A DNA stretch of 64,000 nucleotides. It comes from Devosia marina. GTDB lineage: Bacteria; Pseudomonadota; Alphaproteobacteria; Rhizobiales; Devosiaceae. This document shows positions 7,067 through 43,011 of the stretch, piece after piece; the first letter of the stretch is position 1, and each line of letters starts with the position of its first letter. The stretch is taken from contig NZ_WQRF01000003.1 in the NCBI RefSeq assembly GCF_009758415.1, forward strand, positions 248,001 to 312,000, read 5' to 3'. Below the pieces are notes generated by a model that saw only the letters and a list, made by a program, of their open reading frames with translations, ran no database searches and was not told the origin of the DNA. A program made the translations under genes and the position numbers.

Positions 7067-7075
7067 CGAGGGGCA

Positions 7076-12248: not shown

Positions 12249-12282
12249 TGAGAAGGTAAATAATTGAGTTCGGGGGGACTTC

Positions 12283-12810
12283 TTGAATACTGCGGCACTT
12301 GAGGATTTCGCCAGCGATGCGGTCAACGCGATAGCGAAATTCAACCTCAATTTCATATTGTCTACTGACCAGTTTGGCCGGACGGATTTTGTCATCGATC
12401 CCCTTCATTGGGAATCGATCGGCTACGCCGATGATGCCGCGATTGCCAACGTTCCCAATGATCGCCGCGGCCTTTATGCCTTTGCGATTTGCAAGACGAG
12501 CGCGGTACTCCCGCCCCACTGTTACGTCCTCTATATCGGCATCGCCGGCAAAGGGGGATCAACCCGTTCGCTTCGCGCCCGTTACAGGGACTATTTGAAC
12601 ACGAAAAAAGTTCTGAAGCGCGAGCGCATCGCGCGCATGATCGGGACTTGGCATCCGGTGTTGCGTTTCTACTTCGCGCCCGTCGACAACGCCGTGACAT
12701 CCGCTCAACTTGAGGAGCTAGAGAAACAGCTTAACAGCACTCTTCTCCCGCCCTTTGCCGAGGGCGACCTGGAAGCCGGAATCAAACAGCAAAGGAGGGC
12801 TTTCAGATGA
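12283..12810 (+). CDS. GIY-YIG-like protein inside the phosphorothioation operon
   Basis: A 175-residue protein with RGLYAF at about 66, then YVLYIGIAGKGG at about 85, and arginines in TRSLRARYRDY, which match the GLY and YIG strands and following arginine of GIY-YIG endonucleases. A later ELEKQLNSTLLPPF supplies the glutamate and asparagine expected in the fold. The start is TTG at 12283 after a G-rich ribosome site; no better ATG exists. Its last four bases overlap the start of the DGQHR gene, tying it firmly to the modification operon. It is not part of the minimal SspABCD set. It could be a nicking enzyme, a restriction effector or a structural domain; activity is inferred. Confidence 0.6.
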   Translation: MNTAALEDFASDAVNAIAKFNLNFILSTDQFGRTDFVIDPLHWESIGYADDAAIANVPNDRRGLYAFAICKTSAVLPPHCYVLYIGIAGKGGSTRSLRARYRDYLNTKKVLKRERIARMIGTWHPVLRFYFAPVDNAVTSAQLEELEKQLNSTLLPPFAEGDLEAGIKQQRRAFR

Positions 12811-14066
12811 CGCGGGTCAAGACCAAGGAAATCATACTTCCGGCATTGCGGGGCGTGATGGGCAATTGGGTCTATTACACTTGCCTGATGAGCATCGACG
12901 AGATTGCCCGGCGCGTCAGCTATGCCGACGAGATTCACAAGAACAAGAAGCTCTCCGACATGATCCAGCGTAGCCTCAAGGCGGCTCGCAGCGCGCAGAT
13001 TGCCGACTACATCAAGACGCAGGAGGAGCGCTTCTTTAATTCGCTTGTCGTGGCTACGTATGGGGGGCAGCCGAATTGGAGCGGCATCGACCGACTCAGC
13101 AGCAAAAGCAAAAACGCCATCGCCGACAAACTGTCAGAGGAGACGTTGAACTCAGTCGGCTTCCTATCGCTCAGCGGCGAAGAAAAGCTCTTTGCGCTGG
13201 ACGGACAGCACCGGCTTTCGGGCATCAAGAAGGCCGTAAAAGAAGGTCTGGAACAAGACCCACCCGACGACCTATCGGTCATATTTGTGGCCCACAAGAC
13301 GACGCCGAAGGGCATGGAAAAGACCCGCAGGCTCTTCACCACGCTCAACAAGACGGCGAAGCCGGTTTCCAAAGGCGACATCATCGCGCTCGACGAGGAC
13401 GATGTCATGGCGATCTGCGTAAGGCGTCTGATTGAGGAAAGCACGCTGTTTAACGGAGTGCGCGTGGCCTTCGTCGCCAGCAACAACATGCCGGTTCAGA
13501 ACACGACAAGTCTTACCACGATAGGCAATCTGTACGACATACTGACCACCTTGTTCACCCGCGTTGAAACTGATCTTAAAGCCGAAAAAGCTGAACTTCA
13601 GCGTGCGCGGCCGGATGATAAGACCCTTGAAGCCTATTTTAAGCTCGCAAAGCAGTATTTTGAACTAATGGCCGCGAGTTTTACGCCGCTATCGGAGTTT
13701 TTTGCCGCTACTGACACCAATCCCGTCGTCAAAAAATACCGCGGCAGTCATGGCGGAAGCGCACTCTTCCGGCCGATCGGCCTGATAGTATTCACAGACA
13801 TCGTTGCGCATCTTAGCAAAACGCGCACGCTGAAAAAATCCATCGAGCTGGCCGGAAAGTTGCCTCATATGCTGACGGCGGTGCCGTTTGAGGGGCTGAT
13901 GTGGGATTCACCGAGCCAGCGCATCGACAACACCAACCGCGTCACTTTGCGCGAAGTCCTTCTTTATATGGTCGGCGATTCCAAATGGAAGGACGACACT
14001 GTCCTTGGCCGGTATCAGCGCGGCATCGGTGACGAGGACGCGGCGCTTCCTAAGAAGGTTGTGTGA
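12807..14066 (+). CDS. DGQHR-domain protein, DndB-like
   Basis: A 419-residue protein carrying FALDGQHRLSGI at about residues 129-140, the signature of the DGQHR domain found in DndB. DndB binds DNA and regulates dnd expression in classical double-strand phosphorothioation systems; it is not part of the core SspABCD machinery. Its presence at the end of an ssp operon suggests a regulator or site-specificity factor. It could be the protein that binds the paired repeats in front of sspB, but that is a guess. The gene ends 14 bases before the stop of a convergent gene, with no room for a separate terminator. Confidence 0.82.
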   Translation: MTRVKTKEIILPALRGVMGNWVYYTCLMSIDEIARRVSYADEIHKNKKLSDMIQRSLKAARSAQIADYIKTQEERFFNSLVVATYGGQPNWSGIDRLSSKSKNAIADKLSEETLNSVGFLSLSGEEKLFALDGQHRLSGIKKAVKEGLEQDPPDDLSVIFVAHKTTPKGMEKTRRLFTTLNKTAKPVSKGDIIALDEDDVMAICVRRLIEESTLFNGVRVAFVASNNMPVQNTTSLTTIGNLYDILTTLFTRVETDLKAEKAELQRARPDDKTLEAYFKLAKQYFELMAASFTPLSEFFAATDTNPVVKKYRGSHGGSALFRPIGLIVFTDIVAHLSKTRTLKKSIELAGKLPHMLTAVPFEGLMWDSPSQRIDNTNRVTLREVLLYMVGDSKWKDDTVLGRYQRGIGDEDAALPKKVV

Positions 14067-14080
14067 CCCCTGCTCCTCCG

Positions 14081-16252
14081 CTAGATCGCGTGTTCGAGGT
14101 CGTACTCTCTCAGGAAGGGCGCAAGGACTTCGTAAGCCTCCGCGCGGTTTTCCGACAGTGACGAAAACTCTGCCACCCTTCCCAGCTCCGATTTAATCAG
14201 GCGCTTGGCGTAATCGGAGTCGGTTTCGTAGTCGTGCGGAAGTACCACGACGAAATCGTGTATCGTCGCCATTTCCTTGCCTGGCGAGCGCCGCAGGATA
14301 CGGCCGCGACGCTGCACGAACTGACGCGGATCACGCGAGCTAGCGAGGATGTAGGCGGTGTTACATGCGGGTACGTCGATACCTTCGTCAAGACAGCGGA
14401 TCGCGACCATTGCATCGATGATACCAATCCGAAAATTTTCCAGAATGGAGTCCCGTTCCTTTCGAGATTCTCGCGAAGTGAAGCGCGAAACGTCCCAGCC
14501 GCGCTTATGCAAGAGTGAGCTGACCGCTTCGACTTGCCTTTGGCTGGAAACGGTGCTTTCGGTTTCAGAATCCTGGTCGGATTCCTCATCGGTTTCGACC
14601 GTGCCGTCGCCGCAATAGAATAGAGTGTGAGGATTGGGCTTCACACCTTCGAGCGCCTTGTCGAGCGCTGCCATCTTGTTGGCGGCCGAACCCACGAGCC
14701 GCGCGCGCCGCATCAGCAGCGCCGTCAGTTGGGGATTGGACGCCACGCCTTTAGTGCCGTCCTGCCGCGCCATGATCCGGCCGATTTGCTCAGAGAGGTC
14801 GACGAACTCGTCAGCCTCGCCCTTGGTGAGCTCGACGACGCGCGGATAATACATATAGGGCGTCAGAACCTTGTCGGTGATCGCCTGCTTGAGCGTGTAG
14901 CGGGAGACGATCTCACCGTAATATTCGGCAAGCCGTTCGTTGCGCTCTTCGTCGAGATAATGTTGTGGCGTTGCCGACAAGCCGATCCGGAAACGGGCAT
15001 GCTCTGGCAGAAAGCCCTCATAGGCCTTTGAGGTATGGTGATGGCACTCGTCGCCAATCCACAGCAAGCGATTGCCGGCAATCTGCTTGAGGCACTCCTG
15101 GAACTCAGGGCTTTTGAGCGTACGGTTCACGACGACGATGGCTGCAAATTTCCTGCTGCCCATGACCAGCTCGTGGACGACGTTCCGCAGCTTCTCAACC
15201 CAGTTCGCGCGCGAGACATAGCAGCGCACCGGGTAGATGTTGAACGAGGAGAGAATATCGACCCACTGGTCGGCGAGGTTCTGGTAGGGCACCGCGATCA
15301 CGCATGCCAGCCCGTCGATGCGCTCGGATAGCTTAACGATCGCATGAATGGAGGTGATCGTCTTGCCCGCACCGGTCGCGAGGTCGAAAGTTCCCTGAAA
15401 ATCACCCTTGGCCTTCCACGCATCGAGCGCCTCGATCTGGTGCGGGAGCATCTTGAAAGGACGGCCGTTGATGGTCGCCGGCTCTTTAGGCTTGGAAGTC
15501 GTCGTACTCGTCGTGCCATGAATCTTGTCACGCACCCGCGCCGCGATCCCGGCCTCAATTTCGGGATCGGGCGTATAAGTCAGCGCCCTTGCGGTCGAGA
15601 TCAGCTTTTCCCTGACGGCAGTCGGAATATCGATGACGGCGGTGGCGCGGCTTTCATTACGCCAGAGCCGATCGAAACTCTCGATATGCGGCCTATAGTA
15701 AGCCTCCAGCTCCGGCCGCCAGGTCGGAAACACATTGATCGACTCGTAGTTGAAGGTCGGCAGAAGCGCATGCGTGCTTTCATTGGCCGAGCCAGAGAAA
15801 ACAAGTTTGTCGTCGGCCGTGTCGCCGATGATCCCGATCTTGTCGTGATACATGCCGCGCTCGCGCAGCGCGATTTTTACTTCAAGCCTTCCGTGCGCTA
15901 CGAGCCAAGCCAACGTTTCAAAGCGGTTCTGAAAAAGCTCATCACTAACATTGGCTATGTGATCGAGAAGTTCAGAACCGATCTTTTCCGAAATCTCGCG
16001 CAGCCGGTGTCCTTCTCGCACCGCTTCGATGTCTTGGGCGTCGGAGAATGCGCCTAGGATCAGTCTTATCTGCCCGCCGTTGCGCACAAAAACCGAAAGC
16101 GCCTGTGCCGCATAGCTGATCGTGGACGCTGAAAAGTACCCGACGGCGCGGTCATAGCTGTTCGCAACCGAGAGCGCCGGGAGATAGAAGTCCTCTAAGA
16201 TGTTGTCGAGATCGGACTTGTAAACTCCCTGATATTGCAGATCGCGCAGCAT
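14081..16252 (-). CDS. PLD-nuclease/SF2 helicase fusion associated with phosphorothioation
   Basis: A 723-residue fusion. Residues of about 30-165 form a phospholipase-D-like domain, with the HxK motif in YHDKIGIIG at about 135 and GSANES at about 154. Residues of about 265-690 form a superfamily 2 helicase: Walker A LATGAGKT at 291-298, DECH box at 401-404, and motif VI FVQRRGRILR. A single HxK suggests it acts as a dimer. It is the last gene of a four-gene block running toward the sspBCD operon. Such helicases in DNA-modification islands are usually restriction components acting on unmodified DNA. It may correspond to one of the SspF/G/H proteins, but I cannot assign which. Confidence 0.8.
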   Translation of the reverse strand: MLRDLQYQGVYKSDLDNILEDFYLPALSVANSYDRAVGYFSASTISYAAQALSVFVRNGGQIRLILGAFSDAQDIEAVREGHRLREISEKIGSELLDHIANVSDELFQNRFETLAWLVAHGRLEVKIALRERGMYHDKIGIIGDTADDKLVFSGSANESTHALLPTFNYESINVFPTWRPELEAYYRPHIESFDRLWRNESRATAVIDIPTAVREKLISTARALTYTPDPEIEAGIAARVRDKIHGTTSTTTSKPKEPATINGRPFKMLPHQIEALDAWKAKGDFQGTFDLATGAGKTITSIHAIVKLSERIDGLACVIAVPYQNLADQWVDILSSFNIYPVRCYVSRANWVEKLRNVVHELVMGSRKFAAIVVVNRTLKSPEFQECLKQIAGNRLLWIGDECHHHTSKAYEGFLPEHARFRIGLSATPQHYLDEERNERLAEYYGEIVSRYTLKQAITDKVLTPYMYYPRVVELTKGEADEFVDLSEQIGRIMARQDGTKGVASNPQLTALLMRRARLVGSAANKMAALDKALEGVKPNPHTLFYCGDGTVETDEESDQDSETESTVSSQRQVEAVSSLLHKRGWDVSRFTSRESRKERDSILENFRIGIIDAMVAIRCLDEGIDVPACNTAYILASSRDPRQFVQRRGRILRRSPGKEMATIHDFVVVLPHDYETDSDYAKRLIKSELGRVAEFSSLSENRAEAYEVLAPFLREYDLEHAI

Positions 16253-16726
16253 CTAGAAGTTGATCCCGTCGATGTCGGGTTCGGCCTCCTCGATATTGAG
16301 GTAGCCGCTTTTTTTCAGCAGCTCCAGAATGTCTCGGTCGGGATATTCACCGCCGCTGCGCAGCATGGCATCGCGAAGAACCTGAAGTCCGCCATTGGCG
16401 TACTCTTCGAAGATCTCCGCGCAACGGCCCTCCTCTCCGTCCTTGAGAATTTCAGGGTCCTTTGAATCGGCAAGCGCAATGAGGAAGATTAGGTCCTCCG
16501 CGTCCCTTCGCTCAAACTGTTGATAAGAAACGTCTTCAGTTCCCGCGCTGCGGTCGAGCGGAACCCGCCGCCCTTCAGAGTAGCCGAGCAAAGCTGCAAA
16601 ACAGAGCAACTCTCGAATCGTCGGAAACAACGTTCGGTCCGTGCCGGGCAGCTTGGTCATGGCTAGCCGCTGCACCATGTCCTCGTGAATGCGGCTTCGG
16701 TGAATATTTGCTGCTCTGTTGCTCAT
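16253..16726 (-). CDS. DNA phosphorothioation-associated protein (dnd_assoc_4-like)
   Basis: A 157-residue soluble protein. TIRELLCFAALLGYSEGRRVPL at about residues 36-57 resembles the conserved segment of phosphorothioation-associated protein 4, a small partner encoded beside DndD-type genes. No catalytic motif is visible. It overlaps the DndD-like gene by four bases upstream and stops one base before the start of the PLD-helicase gene, so all three are coupled. It is likely a structural subunit of the same complex. Family assignment is by resemblance and has moderate confidence. Confidence 0.65.
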   Translation of the reverse strand: MSNRAANIHRSRIHEDMVQRLAMTKLPGTDRTLFPTIRELLCFAALLGYSEGRRVPLDRSAGTEDVSYQQFERRDAEDLIFLIALADSKDPEILKDGEEGRCAEIFEEYANGGLQVLRDAMLRSGGEYPDRDILELLKKSGYLNIEEAEPDIDGINF

Positions 16727-18747
16727 GCCGCCGCCACCTTTACAATTTCGGTGCCGTCATAGGCTGAATCGAAGACGGCCGTACGGTATTCCTCGCCTTT
16801 GAAATACCGACTCTCGGGTTTGCGTTCGCCCGCAGCTGCCCGATTGTGCCGCACTAGTAAGTATTCTGCGCCGATATGCCCCTGAAGTGCTGACAGCACC
16901 TCTTCGGAGCCTTGTGAGCGCGATAGCAACAAGACAACTTGCCGCGACATCTTGGGGATGAACTCGGCGGTGGTCCGGCGGTAGGACTCGTCGAGTTGGC
17001 CGAACGGTGAATCAAGCACCAACGGGGCAATCGTGCCGGGCAGAAGCTTATAATCTTGCGCGTTCTGTCTGATTTTTGCGAACTCCACTAGCGCAGCGGT
17101 AAAGGCAAGTCCAAGGAGCTGGTTTTCGCCGCTGGATTTGGGCAAGGCCATACCGTCCGAGTTGACAAGGCTGATGCCGTAGTCATCAGACATGCGAAGG
17201 TTGAGCACTTTACGCGTTGTCGCTTCCAGAATTCGTCGAATGCCTGCCCTCAGCACTTTTTTCGCCTGTTCCTCTTCCTCAACGAGTTGAAGTTCCAGGG
17301 TTCCCTTTATCGATTCGCAAAGGTTACGACGCTTAGCGTAAATGGCAGTCTGTGTGTCCTGTCGCGCAAGATCGTTGATATCTCTATCAATCTGCGCGCG
17401 CTCGCGCTCTGCATTGCCGATGCCCGTTTGCAGCGCTCCGATTTTACGGTCGATGTCGGATAGTTCCTTTCGCAGCGTCTCCCGTCGCTCCTCGCGCGAG
17501 GCAATATCGTCGAAATTGATGCCCCTAAGCTTATCGTGGATTTCCCCGAGCTGAGCTTCAATGGTCGCATGCTCCTCGTTCGCGTCCGCGAGGCGCTCCT
17601 TGGCTTTGACTAGACGGTTCGGCGCTTTCGCGCGTTCCGATCTGAGCTCGTCAAGCCTCCCACGTACGCGCGTGACCCTGTCGCGCATGATTTGATTGGC
17701 TGCTTTTTCTAGAAGCTGCGCAACCCGTTTTGCGGCCTCGCTGCCGGGCGGCAAATGCGCGCCACAGATACAAGACTCAGCCTCTAAGACGTCCTTGACG
17801 AATTCCTCGTTGTAGGGTGAAGGGATGCGTCCACGGTGGGACTCGTCATTCAAGAAATCGAACGTTTCAGCGGTAATCTTCTTCGAGACGATAAAGCGAC
17901 CGTTCTCGCCAAGCCATTTATAAACATCGTCTGAAGATTCCTTCTGACGCTTTTCGACGCGGCGCATTTGCTCGGTCAACCGTTCGCGGCTGCGCTGCAA
18001 CTCCTTCGCCGCGGCCGTGTTGCGGAGCTTGTTGTCGATGTCGTTGATTTGCTCTTCCGTCAGCTGCCTTGATTTTTCGAGCCGTTCGATTTCGCTCTTG
18101 GCTGCATCGATCTGTGAGCCGAGTGCGTCGAGCCGGTTGTTTAGCTGCTCAATTTTCTGAGTGGCCGGCGTCGAGGGTATCTGCTTGCGAAACTGACTGG
18201 AGATCGCCTGCAAGTCATCAATGGCCGTTTCAATGAGAGAGCAGCCTAATATATCTCGTACCGCCCCTCGGATGGAGGAGCGATTCTTCTCTCCTAGGAA
18301 GACCTCAGCGTGCTCGCCGTCAAAGAGGAAATGCGCAGCCATTTCGCGCGGGATTACGGTATTGATGAATGTGTCCGGGGAAGGAACGTCCACCTGCCCC
18401 CCACGATCAAACCGCGCAACTACGAAGTTTCGGCCTTCCGCGTTGCCCGTACGGAAAAAGCGTTTGGCTATGTAGTGATTGTCGTTGTGTTCGAATAGCA
18501 CCTCTACGGACGCGAGACTCCGCCCTTCCTTTTTAGCGTCATAATTGAGGATGTCCTCTCGCTTCTCAAAGCGGCTGGTGGTTTCTCCATAAAAGCACCA
18601 CAGCAGTGCGTTGAGCAACGTCGTCTTGCCAACTCCATTCTCGGCATAAATCAACGTCACGTTCCGGTCTTTGTCGGTTGAGAATGCGATCTTGCATTCA
18701 CCGTAAAAGCAGCGGAAATCTTGAAGCCTTATTTCATCAAGAATCAT
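16723..18747 (-). CDS. DndD-like SMC/Rad50-type ATPase
   Basis: A 674-residue protein with Walker A ENGVGKTT at about 36-43 and a long central coiled coil broken by a hook-like CICG. An ABC signature region (SSGENQLLG) and Walker B (PLVLDSPFGQLDE) close the second half. This is the Rad50-like layout of DndD, which in dnd systems opens or nicks DNA. Here the cysteine desulfurase and PAPS reductase are in a separate SspABCD cluster, so this protein more likely belongs to the restriction or sensing module. The start overlaps the preceding small gene by eleven bases. Confidence 0.85.
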   Translation of the reverse strand: MILDEIRLQDFRCFYGECKIAFSTDKDRNVTLIYAENGVGKTTLLNALLWCFYGETTSRFEKREDILNYDAKKEGRSLASVEVLFEHNDNHYIAKRFFRTGNAEGRNFVVARFDRGGQVDVPSPDTFINTVIPREMAAHFLFDGEHAEVFLGEKNRSSIRGAVRDILGCSLIETAIDDLQAISSQFRKQIPSTPATQKIEQLNNRLDALGSQIDAAKSEIERLEKSRQLTEEQINDIDNKLRNTAAAKELQRSRERLTEQMRRVEKRQKESSDDVYKWLGENGRFIVSKKITAETFDFLNDESHRGRIPSPYNEEFVKDVLEAESCICGAHLPPGSEAAKRVAQLLEKAANQIMRDRVTRVRGRLDELRSERAKAPNRLVKAKERLADANEEHATIEAQLGEIHDKLRGINFDDIASREERRETLRKELSDIDRKIGALQTGIGNAERERAQIDRDINDLARQDTQTAIYAKRRNLCESIKGTLELQLVEEEEQAKKVLRAGIRRILEATTRKVLNLRMSDDYGISLVNSDGMALPKSSGENQLLGLAFTAALVEFAKIRQNAQDYKLLPGTIAPLVLDSPFGQLDESYRRTTAEFIPKMSRQVVLLLSRSQGSEEVLSALQGHIGAEYLLVRHNRAAAGERKPESRYFKGEEYRTAVFDSAYDGTEIVKVAAA

Positions 18748-19322: not shown

Positions 19323-19412
19323 GTGTACTCAAAGTACCCGAAACCCTTAAAGGCCAAAGCCGCCTTGCCGCGCTCTTTGATATTATGCTATAATGTGTAC
19401 TATGAGTGCACA
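19323..19412 (+). promoter_or_regulatory. abiE promoter flanked by two similar inverted repeats
   Basis: TTGCCG at 19365, an 18-base spacer and TATAAT at 19389 form a clear promoter. The start site would fall at about 19401, right at the ATG at 19402, so the message is probably leaderless. Two repeats of the form GTGTACT-NNN-AGT lie at 19323-19339 and 19394-19412, on either side of the promoter. AbiEi antitoxins are known to repress their own operon by binding two inverted repeats. Confidence 0.6.
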
Positions 19413-20220
19413 ACGGGAAGAAAAGCTGAAGAGCGTTCTGGAAGCGGTCCCCGCCGGCTTCGTCGTGGACGCGCGCTGGCTGGAAACACATGGCGTCAGC
19501 CGTTTCCTGACCCGCCGCTATATAGAGAGCGGCTGGCTCGAACGCCTGGAGCGCGGAGTCTTCCGCCGCCCCGCGCCGCAGCCCGCGCCGCTCGACTGGC
19601 AAAGCTGCGTGCTGTCCCTCCAGCATATCATGCACTATCAGGTCCACGTCGGCGGCATATCCGCCCTCGGCCTTCACGGTTACCGCCACTATCTGCCGCT
19701 CGGCGCGCCACCGCCCATGTGGCTCTATGGCGACGACACGCCGCCCTGGCTCTCCCGCCTCACACTCGACGCACCGCTCATATGCCGCCCGTTGTCCCTG
19801 TTCAGCGACCCGGCGCTCGGCCTAACGGAAAACCAGACCGGCAGCACGACGACACTGCCCTGGGGCTGGACCCTGCGCCTGTCCACCCCGGAGCGCGCCG
19901 TCCTCGAAGCGCTCGACGAGCTGCCGGAACAGGAGAGTTTTCACAATCTCGATATGGTGTTCGAAGGGCTCACGACATTGCGCCCCCGCCCGTTGACGGC
20001 GCTGCTGCACAGCTGCCGCAAGATCAAGGTCCGGCGTCTGTTTTTCGTCTTCGCCGACCGCCACAAACACGCCTGGCGCGAACGGCTCAATCCGGAAGAT
20101 TTCAACCTCGGCACGGGCGACCGCGCGCTGATAGCCGGGGGCAAAATCCACCCGCGCTACCGCATCATGGTCCCGCCGGACTTCGTGGACACAACAGACA
20201 GAGCAACCGATGGCCCGTGA
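19402..20220 (+). CDS. abiEi: Type IV antitoxin, AbiEi family
   Basis: A 272-residue protein with an N-terminal winged-helix-like segment (GFVVDARWLETHGVSRFLTRRYIESGWL) and the longer C-terminal domain of AbiEi antitoxins. It neutralises the AbiEii nucleotidyltransferase indirectly and autoregulates the operon. An ATG at 19393 is also in frame, but it overlaps the -10 box, so 19402 is the better start. Its stop overlaps the start of the toxin gene by eleven bases. AbiE pairs act as abortive-infection or maintenance systems, which fits the element context. Confidence 0.88.
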   Translation: MSAQREEKLKSVLEAVPAGFVVDARWLETHGVSRFLTRRYIESGWLERLERGVFRRPAPQPAPLDWQSCVLSLQHIMHYQVHVGGISALGLHGYRHYLPLGAPPPMWLYGDDTPPWLSRLTLDAPLICRPLSLFSDPALGLTENQTGSTTTLPWGWTLRLSTPERAVLEALDELPEQESFHNLDMVFEGLTTLRPRPLTALLHSCRKIKVRRLFFVFADRHKHAWRERLNPEDFNLGTGDRALIAGGKIHPRYRIMVPPDFVDTTDRATDGP

Positions 20221-21130
20221 CGCCTATGCCGCGCAGGTCGCGCTGCTGTTGCGCCTGCTGCCTTTCATTGCGACGGAACCGGTCTTTGCCCTCAAGGGCG
20301 GGACCGCGATCAATCTGTTCTATCGCGACATGCCGCGCCTGTCGGTCGATATCGACCTGACCTACCTGCCGGTCAAGGACCGCGCCGGAAGCCTTGCCGA
20401 GATCAACGCGACGCTCGACCGGATCATGAGTGCGGCCATCGAAAGCATCCCTCGCCTCCAGGCGCAACGCATCGAGGGCGGCGGCGGCGGCGCCACCCGC
20501 ATCCGCGCCCGGCTCGACGGCGCGGAAGTCAAGATCGAGACCTCGCCCGTCACCCGCGGCGTGGTCCATGACCCGGAGCGCCGGGGCGTCTCTCCGGCCG
20601 TCGAGGATGAGTTCGGCTACGCCGCCATCAACATTGTCTCCTTCGAGGATTTGTTCGGCGGCAAGCTCCATGCGGCCGTCGACCGCCAGCATCCGCGCGA
20701 CCTGTTCGACGTGAAGCTGCTCTACGAGAATGAAGGGCTGACCGACGCGCTGTTCCGCACCTTCCTGGTTTATGTGGCGAGCTCCCCGCGCCCCGCGCAT
20801 GAATTGCTGTCACCGAGCCTGAGCGCTCTCGACGAGCCCTTCGCCAGGGAATTCATCGGCATGACGACCATCCCGATCACCCTCGACGAGCTTGCCGCCA
20901 CCCGCGACCAGCTGATCGCCGATATCCGCAACCGCCTTGACGACACGACGCGACAATTCCTGCTGAGCCTGCATGACGGCGCACCGGATTTCACCGCCAT
21001 CGGCCTGCCGCAGGCACAAACCCTACCGGCCGTGCGCTGGAAGCTACTCAATCTCAACAAGCTCAAGGACGAAAACCCTGCCAAGCACAAAGCGCAGCGA
21101 GCGGAACTGGAGAATCTGTTCGGCGGCTAG
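20210..21130 (+). CDS. abiEii: Type IV toxin, AbiEii nucleotidyltransferase
   Basis: A 306-residue protein with FALKGGTAINLF at about 25 and LSVDIDLTY at about 44, the GS-like and DxD motifs of the AbiEii/MNT nucleotidyltransferase fold. It lacks no obvious catalytic residue. Such toxins transfer nucleotides to targets such as tRNA and stop growth. The last four bases overlap the stop of the convergent helicase-nuclease gene, so the two transcripts must be antisense at their ends. The upstream overlap with abiEi indicates coupled expression. Confidence 0.9.
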   Translation: MARDAYAAQVALLLRLLPFIATEPVFALKGGTAINLFYRDMPRLSVDIDLTYLPVKDRAGSLAEINATLDRIMSAAIESIPRLQAQRIEGGGGGATRIRARLDGAEVKIETSPVTRGVVHDPERRGVSPAVEDEFGYAAINIVSFEDLFGGKLHAAVDRQHPRDLFDVKLLYENEGLTDALFRTFLVYVASSPRPAHELLSPSLSALDEPFAREFIGMTTIPITLDELAATRDQLIADIRNRLDDTTRQFLLSLHDGAPDFTAIGLPQAQTLPAVRWKLLNLNKLKDENPAKHKAQRAELENLFGG

Positions 21131-24572: not shown

Positions 24573-26480
24573 CTACCGCTCCCGCTCAAAATCCTTCCCG
24601 TCCTCACCGCGCTCCGGCCCGCGGGCAGAACGTGAGCGCCTGATCCGCCGCCCGCCGGACCCGCCATCATCGCCGCCGCCATCACGGTCCCGCGCCGCGT
24701 CCCGGAACTTGTCGGCGAGCGGCAGTTCGGTCCAGTGCACCTCCGGCAGGCCGGTGGCGGGCGTGCCCGGATCGGGACCGCGCTGCACCGGCACCTCCGC
24801 CGCCACTTCCCGCGCCCGCCGTCGCCGTCGGCGGCGGCGACCATCATCACCGCCGCGACCGCCGCTTCTCTCACCGCGCTCGCCCTCCTCACGCCCGCCG
24901 CGCTGATCCTCTTTGACCGCCGGCCGCACCGAGCCGGCAAAGGCCGCGCGCAACGCGCTGCCTTTTTCCTTCTCCTGCCGATCGACGGTGATGACGATCT
25001 CCTGATCCTGCACCCCGCGATCAGCATGACGATCATGACGATCATCATCACGCTGATGATCGCGCTTGCGATAGCGGTCCTTCGCCTTGTGCGGCACGGC
25101 GGACCGGCCTCTGGGCTTCAGCGCCAGATTCATCGCCGGCATGTGGTCGTGGCCTGCGCGCTGGCGCACGCGCTCTTCGCGGCGCTGCGCGACTTCGAAG
25201 CTTTTCAGCTCGCGCGCCTCGATCTGCGCCAGCGCCCGCACTTCCCGCGCGATATCGACGGCCTGCAACGCCTGGCGGTGGGCGAGTGCGCGTTTGTCTT
25301 CGGCCTGCCGCTCCGCAAGCGCGGCCTTCTCCACCTGATACGCCGCATGACGCTGCGCGTCGCGGTGCTTGTGGATCTTCGCGATGACAAAGGACACGCC
25401 CGTCACCCGCCCGAGAAAGGCCGCAAGCCCGGTCGGCCTGGCAGCCGCGCGCGCCGCTTTCACCCGCCGCACCTCAGCGAGATAACGCGCCTTCAGCGCC
25501 TGCCGCGCGGCAAGCTGGTCCCGCGCCAGCGCCGCCCGCTCATCACGTTGGCGCGCCCGCAAGGCTACTTGCGCGGCCTCGACCTTCTGCCGCCGCGCGG
25601 CCTGGGCAGCCTTGAGCCTGTCGAGCGCCTTACCGTCGCGCTGGCTTCTGGCGAAATCCTCGCGCGCCTGGCGATGCTGCGCGACCAGCGCTTTTGCCTC
25701 ATCAACGCTTGGCAGGGACTCGGGCGGGAATTCAGCTTCCAGAAAGGCGCGGATATCTTTGGTGCGGACCGACCGGTCGTCGATCAGCTTCGGCAATGCG
25801 TTCATGTTGCCGTAGAGATCGACCAGCACATAGGGCCGGCTACCGGTGGCCAGGACATAGCCCAGCTCTTCGAGCGCCCGGACGAAAGCGCGCGGGCTGT
25901 CGCTGCGCTTCCAGGCGGCAGTGACCGCCGCCATGCGCTCCTCTTTGGTAATGCCGGAGGATTTCTGCTGCTGCATCTCGTAGAGCGTCTTCTTCTTCCG
26001 CTCATCACCACCGCGCGCATAACCTTCGGGCAGCGCCAGCCCGTGATCGCGGGCGAATTCCCGCGTCACCATCATCAGCTTGTCATGGTCGAAGGGCTGG
26101 TGGATCGCCTTGCCCGCCCGCGCATCGATGCGCGACCAGACGATATGACAATGCTCGCGCCCGTCCTTGATATGAAAGACGAGCGCGCGCGGCTGGCCCG
26201 CAAGCCCGAGCGCCTTCTCGACGCGGTCGGCGTAGTCGAGATACTGCGCCCGGCTGAGCTGGCCCTGGCCGAGATCGGGATTGACCGACAGGCTGTAGAG
26301 GTAATTCCGGCACCTGGTCAGGTTATGGGCGATCGCCTCCCACTCGGCGAACGCGCCATGCAGGTCGGAAGCCACCGCGCCGCGGACCTCCGCCAGCTCG
26401 ACATATTCATTGTCGAAGCCATTGAGCAGATGGGTGGCGAGGTCCTGCCCGCCGGCACGCTGGCTCGCCTTGGGGATCAC
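24573..26480 (-). CDS. Relaxase / mobilization nuclease
   Basis: A 635-residue protein. Its N-terminal half has the relaxase fold: an early active region (HLLNGFDNEYVELAEVRG), YLYSLSVNP, and the metal-binding histidines in EHCHIVWSRID. The C-terminal half is a long charged helix rich in alanine, arginine and glutamine, followed by a low-complexity arginine/glycine tail. It would nick at oriT and pilot the strand during conjugative transfer. The start overlaps the MobC-like gene by four bases. DNA in 24427-24572 holds no gene. Type of relaxase (MobP/MobQ-like) is not certain. Confidence 0.8.
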   Translation of the reverse strand: MIPKASQRAGGQDLATHLLNGFDNEYVELAEVRGAVASDLHGAFAEWEAIAHNLTRCRNYLYSLSVNPDLGQGQLSRAQYLDYADRVEKALGLAGQPRALVFHIKDGREHCHIVWSRIDARAGKAIHQPFDHDKLMMVTREFARDHGLALPEGYARGGDERKKKTLYEMQQQKSSGITKEERMAAVTAAWKRSDSPRAFVRALEELGYVLATGSRPYVLVDLYGNMNALPKLIDDRSVRTKDIRAFLEAEFPPESLPSVDEAKALVAQHRQAREDFARSQRDGKALDRLKAAQAARRQKVEAAQVALRARQRDERAALARDQLAARQALKARYLAEVRRVKAARAAARPTGLAAFLGRVTGVSFVIAKIHKHRDAQRHAAYQVEKAALAERQAEDKRALAHRQALQAVDIAREVRALAQIEARELKSFEVAQRREERVRQRAGHDHMPAMNLALKPRGRSAVPHKAKDRYRKRDHQRDDDRHDRHADRGVQDQEIVITVDRQEKEKGSALRAAFAGSVRPAVKEDQRGGREEGERGERSGGRGGDDGRRRRRRRRAREVAAEVPVQRGPDPGTPATGLPEVHWTELPLADKFRDAARDRDGGGDDGGSGGRRIRRSRSARGPERGEDGKDFERER

Positions 26481-26809
26481 GGTCGTCGCCCTAGGGCCGA
26501 CAGCAGCGCGGCGCGGATGTCATGCAGGTCCCGGACCGCCGCATCGAACAGCGCGGGATCGACCCGATCCGCATCGCCGAGCGCGCGCAGGCGATCATGC
26601 AGGGCCGCTGTCTCGGCGAGAAGACGCGCGACCTGCTGCTGTTCGATCGGGGCGCGCCTTGCCTGCCGGGGGGCATCATCGGCGAAAACGGATTGCGTGA
26701 TGAAGGCACTGACGGAGAGGCCGGATTTCTCGACCCGCGCCCGGAATTCCTCGCGGAGGGCTTCCGGGGGGCGATACGAAATCGGGGCATCGCGTTTCTT
26801 CTCCGTCAT
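26477..26809 (-). CDS. MobC-like relaxosome accessory protein
   Basis: A 110-residue protein starting MTEKKRDAPISYRPPEALREEF. The N-terminal strand and helices (ISYRPPEALREEFRARVEKS then LSVSAFITQSVF) look like the ribbon-helix-helix part of MobC-type accessory proteins, which bind oriT and help load the relaxase. The in-frame codon at 26821 is possible but gives a poorer N-terminus. Encoded directly upstream of and overlapping the relaxase gene. A hairpin-rich non-coding stretch begins about 100 bases upstream of it. Confidence 0.75.
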   Translation of the reverse strand: MTEKKRDAPISYRPPEALREEFRARVEKSGLSVSAFITQSVFADDAPRQARRAPIEQQQVARLLAETAALHDRLRALGDADRVDPALFDAAVRDLHDIRAALLSALGRRP

Positions 26810-26908
26810 GCGCACATACATAAATGCGCCGCCGCATCACGGGCCGCGCGCATTCCGCGCGCCGCCATCGCCACCCACCGCCGCCCGCCGACACCAAAAC
26901 GAGGGTCC

Positions 26909-27280
26909 AGGGGAGCGTCATCCCCTGCGTCGATGGGTTTCCAAAGGGAGAGCCGACATCCGCCCTTTGGTCGAAGCCGATGCCGAAACATCGGTCGTGG
27001 TCCAGGGCGCGACAGCCCTGGCCGTGGTTGCAAGGGGCGCGGAAGCCCCTGCCTGATGGGTCCAGGGAGAGCAGCAATCTCCCGGTCGTGACGCAACGGC
27101 GAAACGTTGCCTCAGCCGGGGCGGGTTCGATACCCGCCAGCCCAAGCGTCCGGCTGACCGCATCCGTTGGACCGACTCCGCCGCAAGCGGAGACGCAAGC
27201 CTTACGGATGCCACCGGGGGGTCCGCGGGGGATGTGAAATCCCCCCGGCAAGGTGCGCGTGGTAGTACCACGCACACCTT
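26909..27280. repeat. Array of about eleven short hairpins upstream of mobC-relaxase
   Basis: Perfect or near-perfect inverted repeats follow one another with little spacing: 26909-26926, 26941-26970, 26977-26994, 27002-27021, 27033-27050, 27065-27083, 27093-27110, 27120-27138, 27176-27192 (inside a longer pairing 27161-27210), 27227-27245 and 27250-27280. Several have the same six-base loop form: GCGTCA, CCGAAA, GCGACA, GCGGAA and GCGAAA. GGTCCAGGG recurs at 26904, 26999 and 27059. It may contain oriT, or be a structured RNA. Confidence 0.75.
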
Positions 27281-27318
27281 GTACAAAAGCCTATCCGGAC
27301 TTCCCCTGTTATACTCTC

Positions 27319-27349
27319 ATTATACCAGAGGAGCGTGATGCTTTGGAAA
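27319..27349 (-). promoter_or_regulatory. Possible promoter reading into the hairpin array
   Basis: On the minus strand TATAAT lies at 27324-27319, with TTTCCA 19 bases upstream as a poor -35. Transcription from here would cross the hairpin array and reach mobC, giving a leader of about 500 bases. The remaining DNA to 27547 contains no gene that I recognise. Confidence 0.3.
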
Positions 27350-27547
27350 TCTGCACGCCGCTCACAAGCGATCGTCATGCACATTACATGACCACGATCA
27401 CGACTGCACGAGGTTTGCGCGCGGAAGATAGGCCGTAAACCAGCCGATATTGAAGCCATCTCTCATCTGCGGTCTCGATCCCGGGCCTGGTGCTGATTGT
27501 GATGTACATCCCGGACCGGGGACGGCCGCCGGAAAGGATGGCCCCTC

Positions 27548-28258
27548 ATGAACATCCATACGCAGGCCGATGCGCTGTCCGGAACCGGGCAGCAGCAGGC
27601 CGCCCCTGACCTCACCCTAAAGCCGACGCGGGAGACCTATGACCGGCTCCAGCAGGCTTACGAGCATTTCAACAAGGCGCTGTTCGACGGCACGCTGCCG
27701 AACGCGCTCATTACCTTGCAGCGCCGCAAGGGCACGTTCGGGTATTTCGCGGGACGCAAGTTCAGCAATGACGCGGGCCAGCCCGCCGATGAAATCGCCC
27801 TCAACCCGCAGGGCTTCGCCGACCGGGGCTTACCCGACATCCTCGCCACCCTCGTCCATGAGATGGTGCATCTGTGGCAGCACCATCACGGCACACCGGG
27901 ACGCGGGCGTTATCACAACCGCGAATGGGCGGAGAAGATGAAGGCGATCGGTCTTCACCCGACCGATAACAGCGCGGAAGACGGTAACGAGACCGGCGAG
28001 CGCGTCGGTCATATGATCGTCCCCGGCGGTGCTTTCGAGGCAGCCGCGAAGAAGCTCACGGCGAAGGACTTTGCCCTGATCTGGAAGGAAGTGAAGCTGC
28101 CCCCGCAACAGCCGGGCGAAGGCGCAGCCCAGCCCGCCGACAAGAGCGGCAAGCGCGTGCGCTATTGCTGCCCGGACTGCGACCTCAAGGCCTGGGCGAA
28201 GCATGACGCGAAGCTCGTCTGCGGCGACCACATGGTCGCCATGACCCCCGGCGCATAA
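27548..28258 (+). CDS. SprT-like zinc metallopeptidase-domain protein
   Basis: A 236-residue protein with HEMVHLWQHHHG at about residue 107, the HExxH zinc motif in the SprT arrangement, and a C-terminal zinc ribbon (CCPDCDLKAWAK followed by VCGDH). SprT-like proteases relate to Spartan, which removes DNA-protein crosslinks; the role of element-borne copies is not established. One attractive idea is clearing relaxase or other proteins from DNA. It starts after GGAAAGGATGG and is followed by a strong terminator. Confidence 0.8.
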   Translation: MNIHTQADALSGTGQQQAAPDLTLKPTRETYDRLQQAYEHFNKALFDGTLPNALITLQRRKGTFGYFAGRKFSNDAGQPADEIALNPQGFADRGLPDILATLVHEMVHLWQHHHGTPGRGRYHNREWAEKMKAIGLHPTDNSAEDGNETGERVGHMIVPGGAFEAAAKKLTAKDFALIWKEVKLPPQQPGEGAAQPADKSGKRVRYCCPDCDLKAWAKHDAKLVCGDHMVAMTPGA

Positions 28259-35826: not shown

Positions 35827-36008
35827 AATGAGAGAAGTTATTGTAGTTGACGGTTATTATTGATCAAGATAATTGCAGATAAAAATATACTTATCAACCA
35901 AAATAGGGTTTACAGAAACGGTCGGTAATCATAGGCGCGGGGTTTAGACGAGGATTTGTGGCCTCTCGTGGAATTAAGTTGAGGAGAAGTATCGAATGGT
36001 CTGCACCC

Positions 36009-37538
36009 ATGCCCCACTCTCTCACCGACTTCACCCGCGATATCCCGCGTGGCATCGCCACGCGGTTTCTCAATCAACAGAGCGTGCCGCAAGCACGGTG
36101 GCAGGACCCGGCGCAGTTGGCGCGATCACCTGCTGTCGCATACGACTGTAACCGCCCCGGCGCGAAGGTGCTGGTCGGGGCGCTTGGCGAGAGGCTGATC
36201 GGCATTGAGGACAACCGCCATATGCTGACCGTCGCCGGGTCGCGGGCGGGCAAGTCGGTGATGCTGGTCGCGAATTTGATGTTCTATCGCGGCAGCGTGC
36301 TGGCGCTCGATCCCAAGGGGGAGTTGGCGAACCTGACCGCGCGCCGCCGTGCGGCGCTGGGGCAGGATGTGCATGTGCTGGACCCGTTTCTCACCTGTCG
36401 TGACCATGTCGCGCCGTACCGCAAGCGCTACAACCCGCTGGCGATGCTGCGTATCGACAGCGACACGGTGATCGAGGATGCGGGGATGATCGCGGACGCG
36501 CTGGTCGTGCCGTCCGCGGGCAAGGACCCGCACTGGGATGAGAGCGCACGCAATTTCATCGAAGGTCTGATCCTGCATATCGCGAGCGACGCGTCGTTTG
36601 AGGGGCGGCGGACGCTGGTGACACTGCGCGACCTGCTGCGCGATGCGATGATCGCCACGGACGGCGATGACGAGGCCTTCGCCCTCGAAGACGCGATGTT
36701 CGCCAATGCCGAGCGCCTGTCGCGGGATGCTGATACCGACGATCTCGCCAATGCGATCGAGAGCGCGGCGCGGGAGTTCTACGAGAAGCCCGACCGGGAA
36801 CGGGCGAGTGTGCTCTCGACCGCGCGGCGGCACACGAAGTTCCTGGACTACAAGGCGATGCGACGGGTGCTGTCGGGGCACGATTTCGACCTGGCCGACC
36901 TGAAGCGCGCGGCCAGAGGGCAAACGCTCTATCTCTGCCTGCCCGCCAGCCGCATGGGGCTGTGCAATCGCTGGCTGCGCCTGTTCGTCAACCAGCTGCT
37001 CGACGCGATGGAGCGCGAGCGCGCGAAGCCCGCCGCCCCGGTGCTCGTCTGCCTCGACGAGTTCCCGGTGCTGGGCCATATGCGCCAGCTGGAGGATGCG
37101 GCGGGGCAGATCGCATCGTTCGATGTGAAGCTGTGGGTGTTCTTGCAGGACTGGGGCCAGGGCAAGGCGCTGTATGGGGAGCGCTGGGAGACGTTCGCCG
37201 GCAATGCCGGCTTGCTCCAGTTCTTCGGCAATAATGACCTGATGACGATGGAGTATGTCTCGCGCCGGCTCGGCAAGACGATGGTCGCCGTCACCCGCGA
37301 GGGCGAAGTCGGCCCGGACCAGAGTGCCGCCGGCCTTTCGGGCCGCTCGGAGAGTATCGAGCTGCACGATTTGCTGACGCCGGAGGAAGTCAGCCGCCTG
37401 TTCGCGCGCTCCGACCGGCTGAAGCGGCAGCTGGTGATCTGGGCGGGCTACCACCCGATGATATTGCAGCGGGTGGAGTATTTCGACGCCACCAGCCCGC
37501 TGCATGCGCTGTTCGCCGGGAAGTATGACCCGGCCTAG
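36009..37538 (+). CDS. Type IV secretion coupling protein, VirD4/TraG family
   Basis: A 509-residue protein with Walker A GSRAGKSVM at about 77 and Walker B VLVCLDEFPVLGHM at about 346, plus GSVLALDPKGEL, the arrangement of VirD4/TraG coupling proteins. It would link the relaxosome to a mating channel. It lacks the usual N-terminal membrane helices, like some soluble TraG-type proteins of mobilizable elements. The start is uncertain: ATG at 36009 or GTG at 35958. No mating-pair-formation gene is present, so the channel must come from another element. Confidence 0.82.
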   Translation: MPHSLTDFTRDIPRGIATRFLNQQSVPQARWQDPAQLARSPAVAYDCNRPGAKVLVGALGERLIGIEDNRHMLTVAGSRAGKSVMLVANLMFYRGSVLALDPKGELANLTARRRAALGQDVHVLDPFLTCRDHVAPYRKRYNPLAMLRIDSDTVIEDAGMIADALVVPSAGKDPHWDESARNFIEGLILHIASDASFEGRRTLVTLRDLLRDAMIATDGDDEAFALEDAMFANAERLSRDADTDDLANAIESAAREFYEKPDRERASVLSTARRHTKFLDYKAMRRVLSGHDFDLADLKRAARGQTLYLCLPASRMGLCNRWLRLFVNQLLDAMERERAKPAAPVLVCLDEFPVLGHMRQLEDAAGQIASFDVKLWVFLQDWGQGKALYGERWETFAGNAGLLQFFGNNDLMTMEYVSRRLGKTMVAVTREGEVGPDQSAAGLSGRSESIELHDLLTPEEVSRLFARSDRLKRQLVIWAGYHPMILQRVEYFDATSPLHALFAGKYDPA

Positions 37539-41292: not shown

Positions 41293-41565
41293 CTTGCCAC
41301 AAACTCGCCACACGCAGAAAAAGATCGCCTCGGACAATCGAGGATTTCTGCGGGCTACAGCGGATTCTGAAAGTGGCGGGATGTGGCGCGTTTTTGGCGG
41401 TTATGAAAACGAAATCTGCCGCTAACTGCTTGATTTTAAAGTGGTGCCCAGGGACGGAATCGAACCGCCGACACGGGGATTTTCAATCCCCGAAAAACGT
41501 CGATTAAGTGCTTGATATAGATAGATTCCGCTATGCGCTTGCCACAAATTCGCCACACGCAGAAA
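41293..41565. repeat. attP-like region: two 28-base direct repeats around a tRNA-Phe fragment
   Basis: A 28-base sequence at 41293-41320 recurs at 41538-41565 with one mismatch. The right copy is the 3' end of the integrase gene. Between them lies a 3' fragment of tRNA-Phe. The repeats contain two GTGGC-type motifs each, as expected for arm-binding sites of a tyrosine recombinase. Confidence 0.6.
41442..41492 (-). tRNA. 3' fragment of tRNA-Phe(GAA), attachment core
   Basis: Reading the minus strand gives an anticodon stem-loop GGGGATTGAAAATCCCC with anticodon GAA, then TGTC, the T-arm TTCGATTCC and the acceptor end CTGGGCACCA. The 5' half (acceptor and D-arm) is missing, replaced by unrelated sequence, so this is not a working tRNA but the displaced 3' half used as an att core. 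Confidence 0.85.
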
Positions 41566-42712
41566 GCTGTGCGGCTATGATGTTGGCTCTTTCGGCCCGC
41601 AAATGCGTGTGATCCGAGAACAAATGGCCGTAGACGTCGAAGGTTATCTTGACAGAAGAATGCCCCATCAGCGCCTGTACTTCTTTTGGTGTTGCGCCGC
41701 TGTGAATTTCCAGGGACGCCCGCACGTGCCGCAATGACTTGAGCGGGTAGCGCGGCCGCCCAGCGGAATCAACGATTCCACAGGCGCGCTGCAACACGTA
41801 CCAGCCGCGATTGGTGATGTTGCCGTGGCTCTCGACCATGCCGGTTCCGGTCGGGAAGACCAGATCAAGCTCGCTATGCGGGCAGTGGGCTTTCCAGGCC
41901 CGCAGAGCATCGATGACGAGGTCCGGCATATGAATGGTTCGGTAGGAGGATGCTGACTTCGGCAGTCCAATCTCCCGCGTCTCCGTGGCATCCTGCGAAA
42001 CAGTGATCGTGCGCTTCTCGAAGTTCACGTCCCTCCAGGGCAGGCCGATCACCTCGCAAGGGCGCATGCCGGAGTAAGCCAAAACAAGGAAAAATGGCTC
42101 GTATCGCGCCCAGGCTTTCGCCGTTTGACGATTGGTGCTGTGCCTTAACTCCTGCGCCTTGGCCAACAAGGCCCGCACCTCTGCGAGGCTGGGAATCGCC
42201 ATATCTTCCTGCTTTTCGTGACGCTGGGAGATCAGAATGGCCGTGCTCTCTGCGGGGTCACTCCGAAGCCGCCCATCAGTCCGGGCTTGCGCCAGTATCG
42301 ACTTGAAGGAAGTCAGTATTTTCTTCGCGTACTTGCGCGAAAAATCCCGCAAGAGACTGTCACGAAACTCATCGCACGTGACCGGCGTTAATTGGTTCAG
42401 CCGCACATTGCCGATCCGGGCCGCGATGATCTCGACGTGCTCACGGTACTTTCTCAGTGTCGAACCTTCTACGGGCTCGCGACCCTTGCGGCCTGTGTTC
42501 TCGCACACATCCAGCCAACGGCTGGCCGCTTCGGAAATAGTGACCGTATCGCGATCATGGAGGAAATCATGATGACCGAGCGTTGCCACAAAGGCGTCGG
42601 CGTCCATGCGCCGCGCGAAAGATTTATAGCGGATATGCCCTGACACCGGCTCTTTATACCGGACCTGCCAGCCAACGCCGGATCGCCCTTTTCTTTTTCT
42701 GATGTCTGCCAT
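41531..42712 (-). CDS. Tyrosine recombinase (integrase) of the tRNA-Phe-targeted element
   Basis: A 393-residue integrase starting MADIRKRKGRSGVGWQVRY at 42712. It has an arm-type N-terminal domain, a core-binding domain and the catalytic domain: arginine in YSGMRPCEVIGL, LKSLRHVRASL carrying the second histidine and arginine, GHSS and the nucleophile in DVYGHLF. All catalytic residues appear present. The C-terminus overlaps the right direct repeat. It would insert DNA at tRNA-Phe. An alternative start at 42772 adds a weak N-terminus. Confidence 0.9.
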   Translation of the reverse strand: MADIRKRKGRSGVGWQVRYKEPVSGHIRYKSFARRMDADAFVATLGHHDFLHDRDTVTISEAASRWLDVCENTGRKGREPVEGSTLRKYREHVEIIAARIGNVRLNQLTPVTCDEFRDSLLRDFSRKYAKKILTSFKSILAQARTDGRLRSDPAESTAILISQRHEKQEDMAIPSLAEVRALLAKAQELRHSTNRQTAKAWARYEPFFLVLAYSGMRPCEVIGLPWRDVNFEKRTITVSQDATETREIGLPKSASSYRTIHMPDLVIDALRAWKAHCPHSELDLVFPTGTGMVESHGNITNRGWYVLQRACGIVDSAGRPRYPLKSLRHVRASLEIHSGATPKEVQALMGHSSVKITFDVYGHLFSDHTHLRAERANIIAAQLSACGEFVASA

Positions 42713-42768
42713 AATCAAACAATTGTTATTGTTATTTCTTAATATAGAACAAAAAGTGAACTTATAAG

Positions 42769-43011
42769 TCAATTCTTATTTCTGTACTGATTCTCCGCGT
42801 CTATTTGCAGCTGCCGGTAGATATTCACCAGTGTACCGCGCTCGATCTTTAGGGTTCCCTCGATCGGGTCGACGAAGAAGGGCAGCTTGCGGCACCCGGC
42901 GGCATCCTTGTCGGCTGCCCGCTTCATCTGGCGCGGGGTCAGTTCGACCCCCATTTCGGCCAGCACCTGCCGCGCCTGTTCAAGGCCGATATAATGCGGC
43001 GGCATTTGCAT
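42769..43011 (-). CDS. Excisionase-like small protein
   Basis: An 80-residue protein starting MQMPPHYIGLEQARQVLAEMGVELTPRQMKRAADKDAAGC, with the pattern of a helix followed by a winged turn, and a second strand (KLPFFVDPIEGTLKIERGTL). Proteins of this form upstream of integrase genes are directionality factors. The DNA between it and the integrase start is AT-rich and probably carries the integrase promoter. Assignment is by context and size. Confidence 0.5.
   Translation of the reverse strand: MQMPPHYIGLEQARQVLAEMGVELTPRQMKRAADKDAAGCRKLPFFVDPIEGTLKIERGTLVNIYRQLQIDAENQYRNKN

Follow-up and report, generated by a model that had tools for sequence, protein, structure and literature searches.

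We analysed a 64,000-nt stretch of Devosia marina DNA (GCF_009758415.1, contig NZ_WQRF01000003.1, positions 248,001–312,000 of the forward strand), here called the window, and found that a train of hairpins, flanked by the divergently oriented genes mobC and relaxase on one side and an SprT-like gene on the other, ends in a hairpin which, together with its 3’ flank, is very probably the core of the transfer origin (oriT) of a family of mobilizable elements. This assignment is made from sequence comparison, because the centre of the hairpin follows the mobilization protein MobC, the 3’ flank varies with the relaxase and a TA dinucleotide recurs at positions 11–12 past the hairpin. By the same comparison we conclude that the train would be an arm attached 5’ of the predicted nick. 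The joint reading that we favor, with a probability of about 0.55, is that of an oriT region of an integrative mobilizable element, in which the train acts as folded, trailing single-stranded DNA.

Table 1. Hairpins of the array and neighboring genes; positions are counted from the first letter of the window
Feature	Position	Strand	Basis or remark
Relaxase (PF03432)	24573..26480	-	Pfam E 1.9e-16
MobC, NikA-like ribbon-helix-helix (RHH) relaxosome protein	26477..26821	-	PF21983 E 1.7e-4, 22.1 bits, under the cut-off of 27 (weak)
Hairpin train, ten hairpins preceding the terminal one, non-coding	26904..27248	+	Folding, covariation
Hairpin 1, loop GCGTCA	26908..26927	+	
Hairpin 2	26941..26970	+	
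Hairpin 3, loop CCGAAA	26977..26994	+	
Hairpin 4, loop GCGACA	27002..27021	+	
Hairpin 5, loop GCGGAA	27033..27050	+	
Family signature GATGGGTNCAGGGAGAGC...TCTCC with hairpin 6	27055..27083	+	Pattern in at least 119 genome stretches
Hairpin 7, loop GCGAAA	27093..27110	+	
Hairpin 8, outer helix and inner arm, loop GGGTTCGATACCC	27113..27156	+	
Hairpin 9 with inner hairpin	27160..27211	+	Inner helix paired in 50% of cells only
Hairpin 10	27227..27245	+	
Terminal hairpin (CAAGGTGCGCGTGGTAGTACCACGCACACCTTG), putative binding site of MobC and inverted repeat of the oriT	27249..27281	+	
Predicted nick region CTATCCG, TA 11–12 nt past the hairpin	27291..27297	+	TA frequency, relaxase covariation
SprT-like gene, recurrent neighbor in the mob form	27548..28258	+	PF10263; order identical on S. 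meliloti pSymB
VirD4/TraG-type coupling protein	35958..37538	+	PF02534 E 1.7e-63

Structure and conservation of the hairpin train

A preliminary description of this DNA had proposed eleven successive hairpins at 26909..27280. Eleven were indeed mapped, two of them with a nested inner helix, at 26908–27281; the 3’ end of the array is better placed at 27281, and the sequence up to about 27300 also belongs to it. All five loop sequences named in that description (Table 1) were found in the train, and GGTCCAGGG recurs three times as had been stated, at 26904, 26999 and 27059. We take the loop in the inner arm of hairpin 8 to be T-loop-like. Because of this arm we searched for a tRNA- or tmRNA-like element with ARAGORN, which reported only a tRNA-Arg.

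Folding of the region 26900–27285 gave -209.6 kcal/mol for the + strand compared with -171.5 (sd 6.7) for 100 shuffled sequences (z -5.7); the - strand reached a z of -6.1 against its shuffles. Six-base NCGNNR loops made up 192 of the 594 stem-loop frames in 126 arrays, but only 2 of 180 in flanking control DNA, where a frame means six perfect pairs; a long stem may enter the count with two different loop sizes, and the set of arrays includes some copies. This loop type exceeds chance.

Both-sided changes, the absence of which among homologues had been named as refuting selection on structure, were present in nine aligned arrays of the window’s kind: they affect 30 of 95 pairs compared with 13.8 (sd 2.3) after shuffling, a value reached by none of 500 shuffles. 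Sliding one arm against the other yielded at most 11 such pairs, in a comparison biased in favor of the structure since it was drawn on the window’s own row. In these arrays 86.5% of cells pair, which was matched neither by the 500 shuffles nor by any slide, and the number of further pair types was equalled by one shuffle in 500. Besides the inner helix of hairpin 9, that of hairpin 8 is weakly paired (71% of cells). An alignment of 55 3’ domains, nearly all of another kind than the window’s, showed up to four Watson-Crick types at a single pair. The observation in the preliminary description is confirmed, and what the arrays conserve is structure. Stem compensation together with the differences in whole hairpins among homologues speaks against coding.

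At gathering score, Rfam 15 detected only tRNA elsewhere in the window and only tRNA in eight further loci; lowering the threshold to E 5 on the region returned nothing relevant, the best sub-threshold match having 18 bits. The large ornate RNAs GOLLD, ROOL and OLE resemble the train in size, in the number of hairpins and in their mobile-element context; the train differs from them in that it matches no Rfam 15 family at gathering score.

Distribution and modular composition of the arrays

The titles of the genome stretches matching the signature pattern are mostly those of Alphaproteobacteria; Pseudomonas, Marinobacterium and bins from further phyla also occur among the matches listed, and some of these bins may be contamination. 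Arrays were seen in records labelled Planctomycetaceae, Leptolyngbya, Oceanobacillus, Poribacteria and Bacteroidetes (L034, L037, L083, L108 and L122), for which contamination or a binning error is possible. In PLSDB only pSymB of two Sinorhizobium meliloti strains matched, with 77.3% identity over half of the query. In the one strain opened the neighbors are ordered as in the window: AbiEi, AbiEii, a further gene, relaxase, a small gene, the array, SprT and a calcium-binding protein. Within a sample of the class, a DNA match was obtained in 11 of 385 genomes, counting the window’s own, and five of these matches were short and weak. Two stretches with the signature were found in viral contigs, and a search of phage records gave no match.

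The arrays vary in length and hairpin content, hairpins being gained, lost and reordered. Of ten module patterns, nine occurred in arrays and the tenth in neither arrays nor flanks; 76 of 126 arrays hold at least one module, and the modules follow one another in 49 different orders. In 434,666 bases of flanking DNA, seven of these nine had no match, and the two shortest had 4 and 5. Each module is a single hairpin, and genes are absent between them. Three arrays occur in one genome of Stella vacuolata (L019, L088, L133), and in Pseudomonas veronii (L025) the apparent start of an insertion-sequence transposase takes the place of the array’s 3’ part.

Several locus pairs denote the same place (L006/L102, L007/L105, L005/L070, L186/L004, L187/L081, L189/L008) and three Pseudomonas loci are near-identical. 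L001, L014, L070 and L008 were excluded from the counts of neighborhoods, hairpins and modules, and L102 and L105 were retained.

Gene neighborhood and linkage to a relaxase

Arrays occur in two forms of gene neighborhood. In the mob form, seen in the window, in S. meliloti and elsewhere, the array has mobC and relaxase on its 5’ side, both encoded on the - strand, and SprT on its 3’ side. The other form is commoner, and here the array often has divergent genes on its 5’ side. As judged by representatives, the recurrent families on this side are the defence genes HsdM, MmeI, Dcm, Vsr, HerA and SIR2, while a VirD4/TraG coupling protein and a large serine recombinase are among those on the 3’ side. 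In 14 loci (including L015, L018, L062, L111, L113, L126 and L127) a small RHH protein (MKDxGxRIRVxRxLREKF...) is encoded a short distance 5’ of the array, adjoining MmeI or HsdM where inspected.

A PF03432 relaxase was present within 35 kb of 40 of 52 arrays (50 genomes), in all 40 cases on the strand of the array; 12 of the 52 had none within this distance. The relaxase is located upstream in 38 arrays, at 5.2–30 kb with a median of 13.2 kb, and downstream in two, at 13.5 and 24.5 kb. The latter case (G580, same strand) was added by a separate check of the 38 weakest relaxase rows. The link to a relaxase gene that is expected of an oriT is therefore found here, and in the window the relaxase is adjacent. 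A median distance of 13 kb between oriT and relaxase, as in the non-mob form, is unusual for an oriT. Five elements read over 20-kb stretches showed the order mobC, relaxase, cargo and array, with an ArdC domain confirmed in one. When five non-mob elements were searched by eye for an oriT upstream of mobC, no shared element was seen apart from a small ORF. Directly upstream of mobC in five elements (L136–L140) we noticed by eye an ORF of about 40 codons (MAHLxGExSNTLFExL...).

Covariation of the terminal hairpin with MobC and of its 3’ flank with the relaxase

The train ends in a hairpin of the form CAAGRTG-stem-GTASTAC-stem-ACAYCTTG, often followed by TA 10 nt later. With the pattern CAAG-N-stem-GTANTAC-stem-ACA-N-CTTG this hairpin was present in 92 of 119 assessable arrays and missing from the other 27. 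Beyond the central dyad, the arms keep their pairing while the letters change. In every case with both the signature and the terminal hairpin on the same strand, the hairpin lies 3’, and likewise in five cases found by the hairpin only. These stem from a search of the 385 class genomes with the terminal-hairpin pattern alone, ignoring the train, which matched five genomes (the reversed pattern none). By reading, all five, the window included, carry a train directly 5’, two of them without the signature; three of the four matches outside the window were known from other searches and one (L190) was new. Since all of these hairpin-only matches carry a train, the link between train and hairpin is not an artefact of a train-based search.

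Copies of GTANTAC accumulate 3’ of the hairpin, with 40 in the first 300 nt of 87 loci compared with 0 to 5 in other 300-nt bins. Such further copies occur in 29 of 91 loci, 26–110 nt on, and mostly, but not always, resemble the centre of the hairpin of the same locus. By inspection of the sequence, the dyad is absent from the other hairpins of the window. An oriT with many relaxosome sites had been suggested for this array; the oriT is supported for the 3’ end, where centre and flank are tied to MobC and relaxase, while the many sites are not supported, since the other hairpins lack the dyad and the extra copies lie 3’ of the train.

MobC was found in all 56 elements examined, which had been picked for having a relaxase at hand. 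Pfam places it among the NikA-like RHH proteins, with a score that exceeds the cut-off in one element but falls short of it in the window, and the MobC of the window also fits a profile made from related elements. Comparison of MobC with solved structures gave no meaningful match. Omitting five elements without a recognisable terminal hairpin left 51 for analysis. Near-copies were thinned, so that 82 loci were kept for the TA count and 46 of the 51 elements for the test of relaxase against flank; a 97% filter in the MobC test removed none.

Across the 51 elements, similarity in MobC is predictive of similarity at the terminal hairpin’s centre (Mantel r 0.365, p 0.0002; 0.367 when corrected for the array), whereas array similarity yields 0.087 (p 0.034), and -0.09 when allowing for MobC. 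The 26 nt 3’ of the hairpin track the relaxase (r 0.365, p 0.0002, 46 elements; 0.352 array-corrected), compared with 0.107 (p 0.036) for array similarity alone. Similarity of the train thus fails to explain the hairpin centre or the 3’ flank. Correlations with MobC (0.448) and relaxase (0.390) are also seen for the array body, as expected from common descent. Since the similarities of MobC and relaxase go together (r 0.90) and MobC adds little beyond the relaxase for the centre (0.088, p 0.014), the covariations of centre and flank cannot be counted as independent.

At the level of single residues, the MobC column directly before the P-x-S DNA-reading strand holds Arg in 21 of 25 elements with a GGTA centre and in none of the 26 with TGTA, which carry Tyr, Lys, Thr, Ser, Ile or Gly instead. 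This column ranks second in association, the top column lying further along the protein. TA was located at positions 11–12 past the hairpin in 50 of 82 loci, in varying context, as opposed to 0–10 of 82 at other single positions. The arrangement of a hairpin, some ten bases and a TA-led motif resembles relaxase nick sites such as TATCCTG. The signature occurs beside all types of centre (39 G, 51 T, 1 C), which, together with the missing dyad in the other hairpins of the window, suggests that the train may have a partner other than MobC, although the correlation of the array body with MobC keeps this tentative.

Strand of the structure

A scan treating both mismatch types alike counted 267 G.T against 112 A.C in 120 arrays, while the same scan gave 268 against 229 in 141 controls. 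Since G.T exceeds A.C on it, the + strand is the structured strand of the array. With the terminal hairpin excluded, between 185 and 396 G.T and between 73 and 187 A.C were counted depending on the threshold, corresponding to a ratio of 2.1–2.5, compared with 1.33 predicted from base composition alone. For calibration we used one LSU rRNA from another genome, because a 23S rRNA was not found in the window’s own genome assembly; locus L179 was left out and L181 was read antisense. The rRNA gave a ratio of 1.5–4.3, a range including that of the arrays. Relative to Watson-Crick pairs, the share of G.T was 0.046–0.059 in the arrays and 0.10–0.175 in this rRNA. The wobble test offers no distinction between RNA and single-stranded DNA. 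RNAalifold on the 55 aligned 3’ domains gave -40.0 for the + and -36.8 for the - strand, values too close for a choice of strand.

Proposed function and alternative explanations

In the reading that we favor, MobC would bind the dyad of the terminal hairpin, and the relaxase would read the hairpin and nick the + strand about 10 nt further on, within the predicted nick region. The + strand would then be the transferred strand, so that the right-hand side leaves first and the train last. The least certain steps are that the train would form the trailing end of the transferred strand and that it would act there as folded single-stranded DNA, in a function common to elements with different types of MobC. 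Among possible functions an action as single-stranded DNA, e.g. in second-strand synthesis, is our first choice: as a best guess, and the most speculative step of all, the train may load a host or element factor in a strand-specific manner and thereby start second-strand synthesis, with the common six-base loops as putative binding sites of this factor. This guess derives from the predicted position of the train, as almost the entire transferred strand can be copied from a primer close to its 3’ end.

The bias of wobble pairs to the + strand, the strong covariation and the repeated NCGNNR loops would also be accounted for by a structured non-coding RNA of the + strand that is needed for mobilization, like the sgm-sRNA of SGI1. 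Such an RNA might belong to the relaxosome or serve as a decoy that captures a loop-binding protein. T-loop-like loops are typical of RNA rather than DNA. In SGI1, an sRNA adjacent to oriT that is essential for transfer provides a precedent (PMC9299015). We consider such an RNA possible, though less probable than folded single-stranded DNA. The region 26750–27560, searched for sigma-70-like promoter and terminator patterns, contains none, and the arrays start with many different hairpins, both of which argue mildly against an RNA; the 5’ edges obtained by hairpin chaining were too ragged to be aligned for a promoter there. The share of G.T pairs, about half or less of that in the LSU rRNA, and the position of the train in cis at the hairpin in five unselected cases also speak against it. 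A sponge RNA is possible, and the common six-base loop suggests a shared binding partner. If the structure belonged instead to the - strand, the train might be the long 5’ leader of the divergent operon, here mobC-relaxase, transcribed from a promoter 3’ of the train. A TGnTANAAT-like sequence is indeed located on the - strand 38–44 nt 3’ of the hairpin in mob-form homologues (TGGTATAAT in the window), although a full sigma-70 site is absent. We rank this idea low because of the wobble test, which favors the strand opposite to mobC; moreover, the divergent gene is in many homologues a restriction or defence gene rather than mobC, and non-mob elements carry the relaxase on the same strand as the array. 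The leader of the mob operon considered in the preliminary description is accordingly disfavored.

The same promoter-like, AT-rich sequence 3’ of the hairpin in mob-form loci would suit an explanation in which the GTASTAC dyads are only a cluster of MobC-repressed operators and promoters, the train being an unrelated structured neighbor and the site not an oriT. In plasmid RA3, MobC is reported to act as a repressor of its own promoter beside oriT as well (PMC4175270). This explanation appears rather improbable, though less so than the leader, as each of the five unselected cases combines a train with a terminal hairpin, the stem beyond the dyad stays paired despite changes of its letters, and the 3’ flank tracks the relaxase. 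Shared hairpin modules in many orders recall recombination cassettes similar to the attC sites of integrons. Such an array is highly improbable: the modules are single hairpins without intervening genes, and the annotated recurrent neighbors include serine recombinases and not a tyrosine integrase.

We file the feature as an oriT of known kind with an unusual attached structure, leaving room for a new class. In such a class, which we put forward tentatively and well below even odds, a train of interchangeable hairpins with common loops would be fused to the oriT of a large mobilizable family and would recruit one conserved partner, a host factor or a protein of the helper system, either to the strand being transferred or, if it works as RNA, to the relaxosome. 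The results make the probable oriT recognisable by sequence in a large and little-studied group of mobilizable islands, which often carry restriction or other defence genes, and they include a readable pattern of specificity between MobC and oriT. If the train acts on the transferred strand, the conversion of incoming single strands to double strands becomes directly testable in these islands; should the train be an RNA, it would join SGI1 as an example of mobilization that depends on RNA.

Comparison with known systems

We did not find a description of such a structural component of conjugation in the literature searched. Among open-licence papers no title or abstract opening describing a hairpin train of this kind was found, and the available portions of two papers on integrated mobilizable elements (PMC8627217, PMC5704250) do not describe one. 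The pWBG749-family plasmids, as far as the consulted sections of their report go, encode beside the relaxase the RHH protein SmpO, whose N-terminus sets oriT specificity such that F7K switches the site, and possess two sites 65–67 bp apart (PMC8136818). They share with the family of the window an RHH protein beside the relaxase, and their switch of specificity by one residue is a precedent for the association of a single MobC column with the centre. They differ in being Gram-positive plasmids with GNNNNC sites and a potentially branched hairpin, and a long hairpin train was not found in those sections (PMC8136818). The IncU plasmid RA3 is similar in its RHH MobC, in an operator beside the nick and in several inverted repeats of unassigned role; the NLNQ motif of its MobC recurs here in four of five aligned MobC proteins of the non-mob form. 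Its operator is unrelated to GTASTAC, and a train of hairpins with a common loop was not found in the excerpted description (PMC4175270).

The sso1 of ICEBs1 is a strand-specific structure of a conjugative element that serves second-strand synthesis (PMC4595007). Like the train as we read it, sso1 is strand-specific stem-loop DNA in which structure matters besides or instead of sequence; it differs in having three stem-loops, a Gram-positive host and a function known by assay (PMC4595007). The sgm-sRNA of SGI1 is likewise a non-coding sequence adjoining the oriT of a mobilizable island. It differs in being a processed transcript with unrelated mobilization proteins and with the oriT outside its functional core (PMC9299015).

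Further features of the window

The VirD4/TraG-type coupling protein probably belongs to the element of the hairpin train. Genes at 5744–18747 resemble, as judged by eye, a DNA phosphorothioation (Dnd) defence cluster, with a cysteine desulfurase, a sulfotransfer-like enzyme and proteins of the DGQHR and ATPase/helicase types. An AbiE-type toxin-antitoxin pair (AbiEii by PF08843) follows at 19393–21130, matching its position on S. meliloti pSymB. A frame resembling a tyrosine integrase by eye is located at 41531–42772. At 44892–46588 the frame of a large serine recombinase, again recognised by eye, terminates within a tRNA-Arg gene on the opposite strand, and this region is perhaps the right edge of the element. 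The left end was sought through a repeat of the tRNA end, of which the window holds no second copy. Between mobC and the array, a CCGCGCGCATTCCNCGCGC-like stretch at 26844–26862 is conserved across mob-form loci. The AT-rich, promoter-like stretch 3’ of the terminal hairpin lies at 27309–27327 and reads TATACT on the + and TGGTATAAT on the - strand, and mob-form homologues have a similar one.
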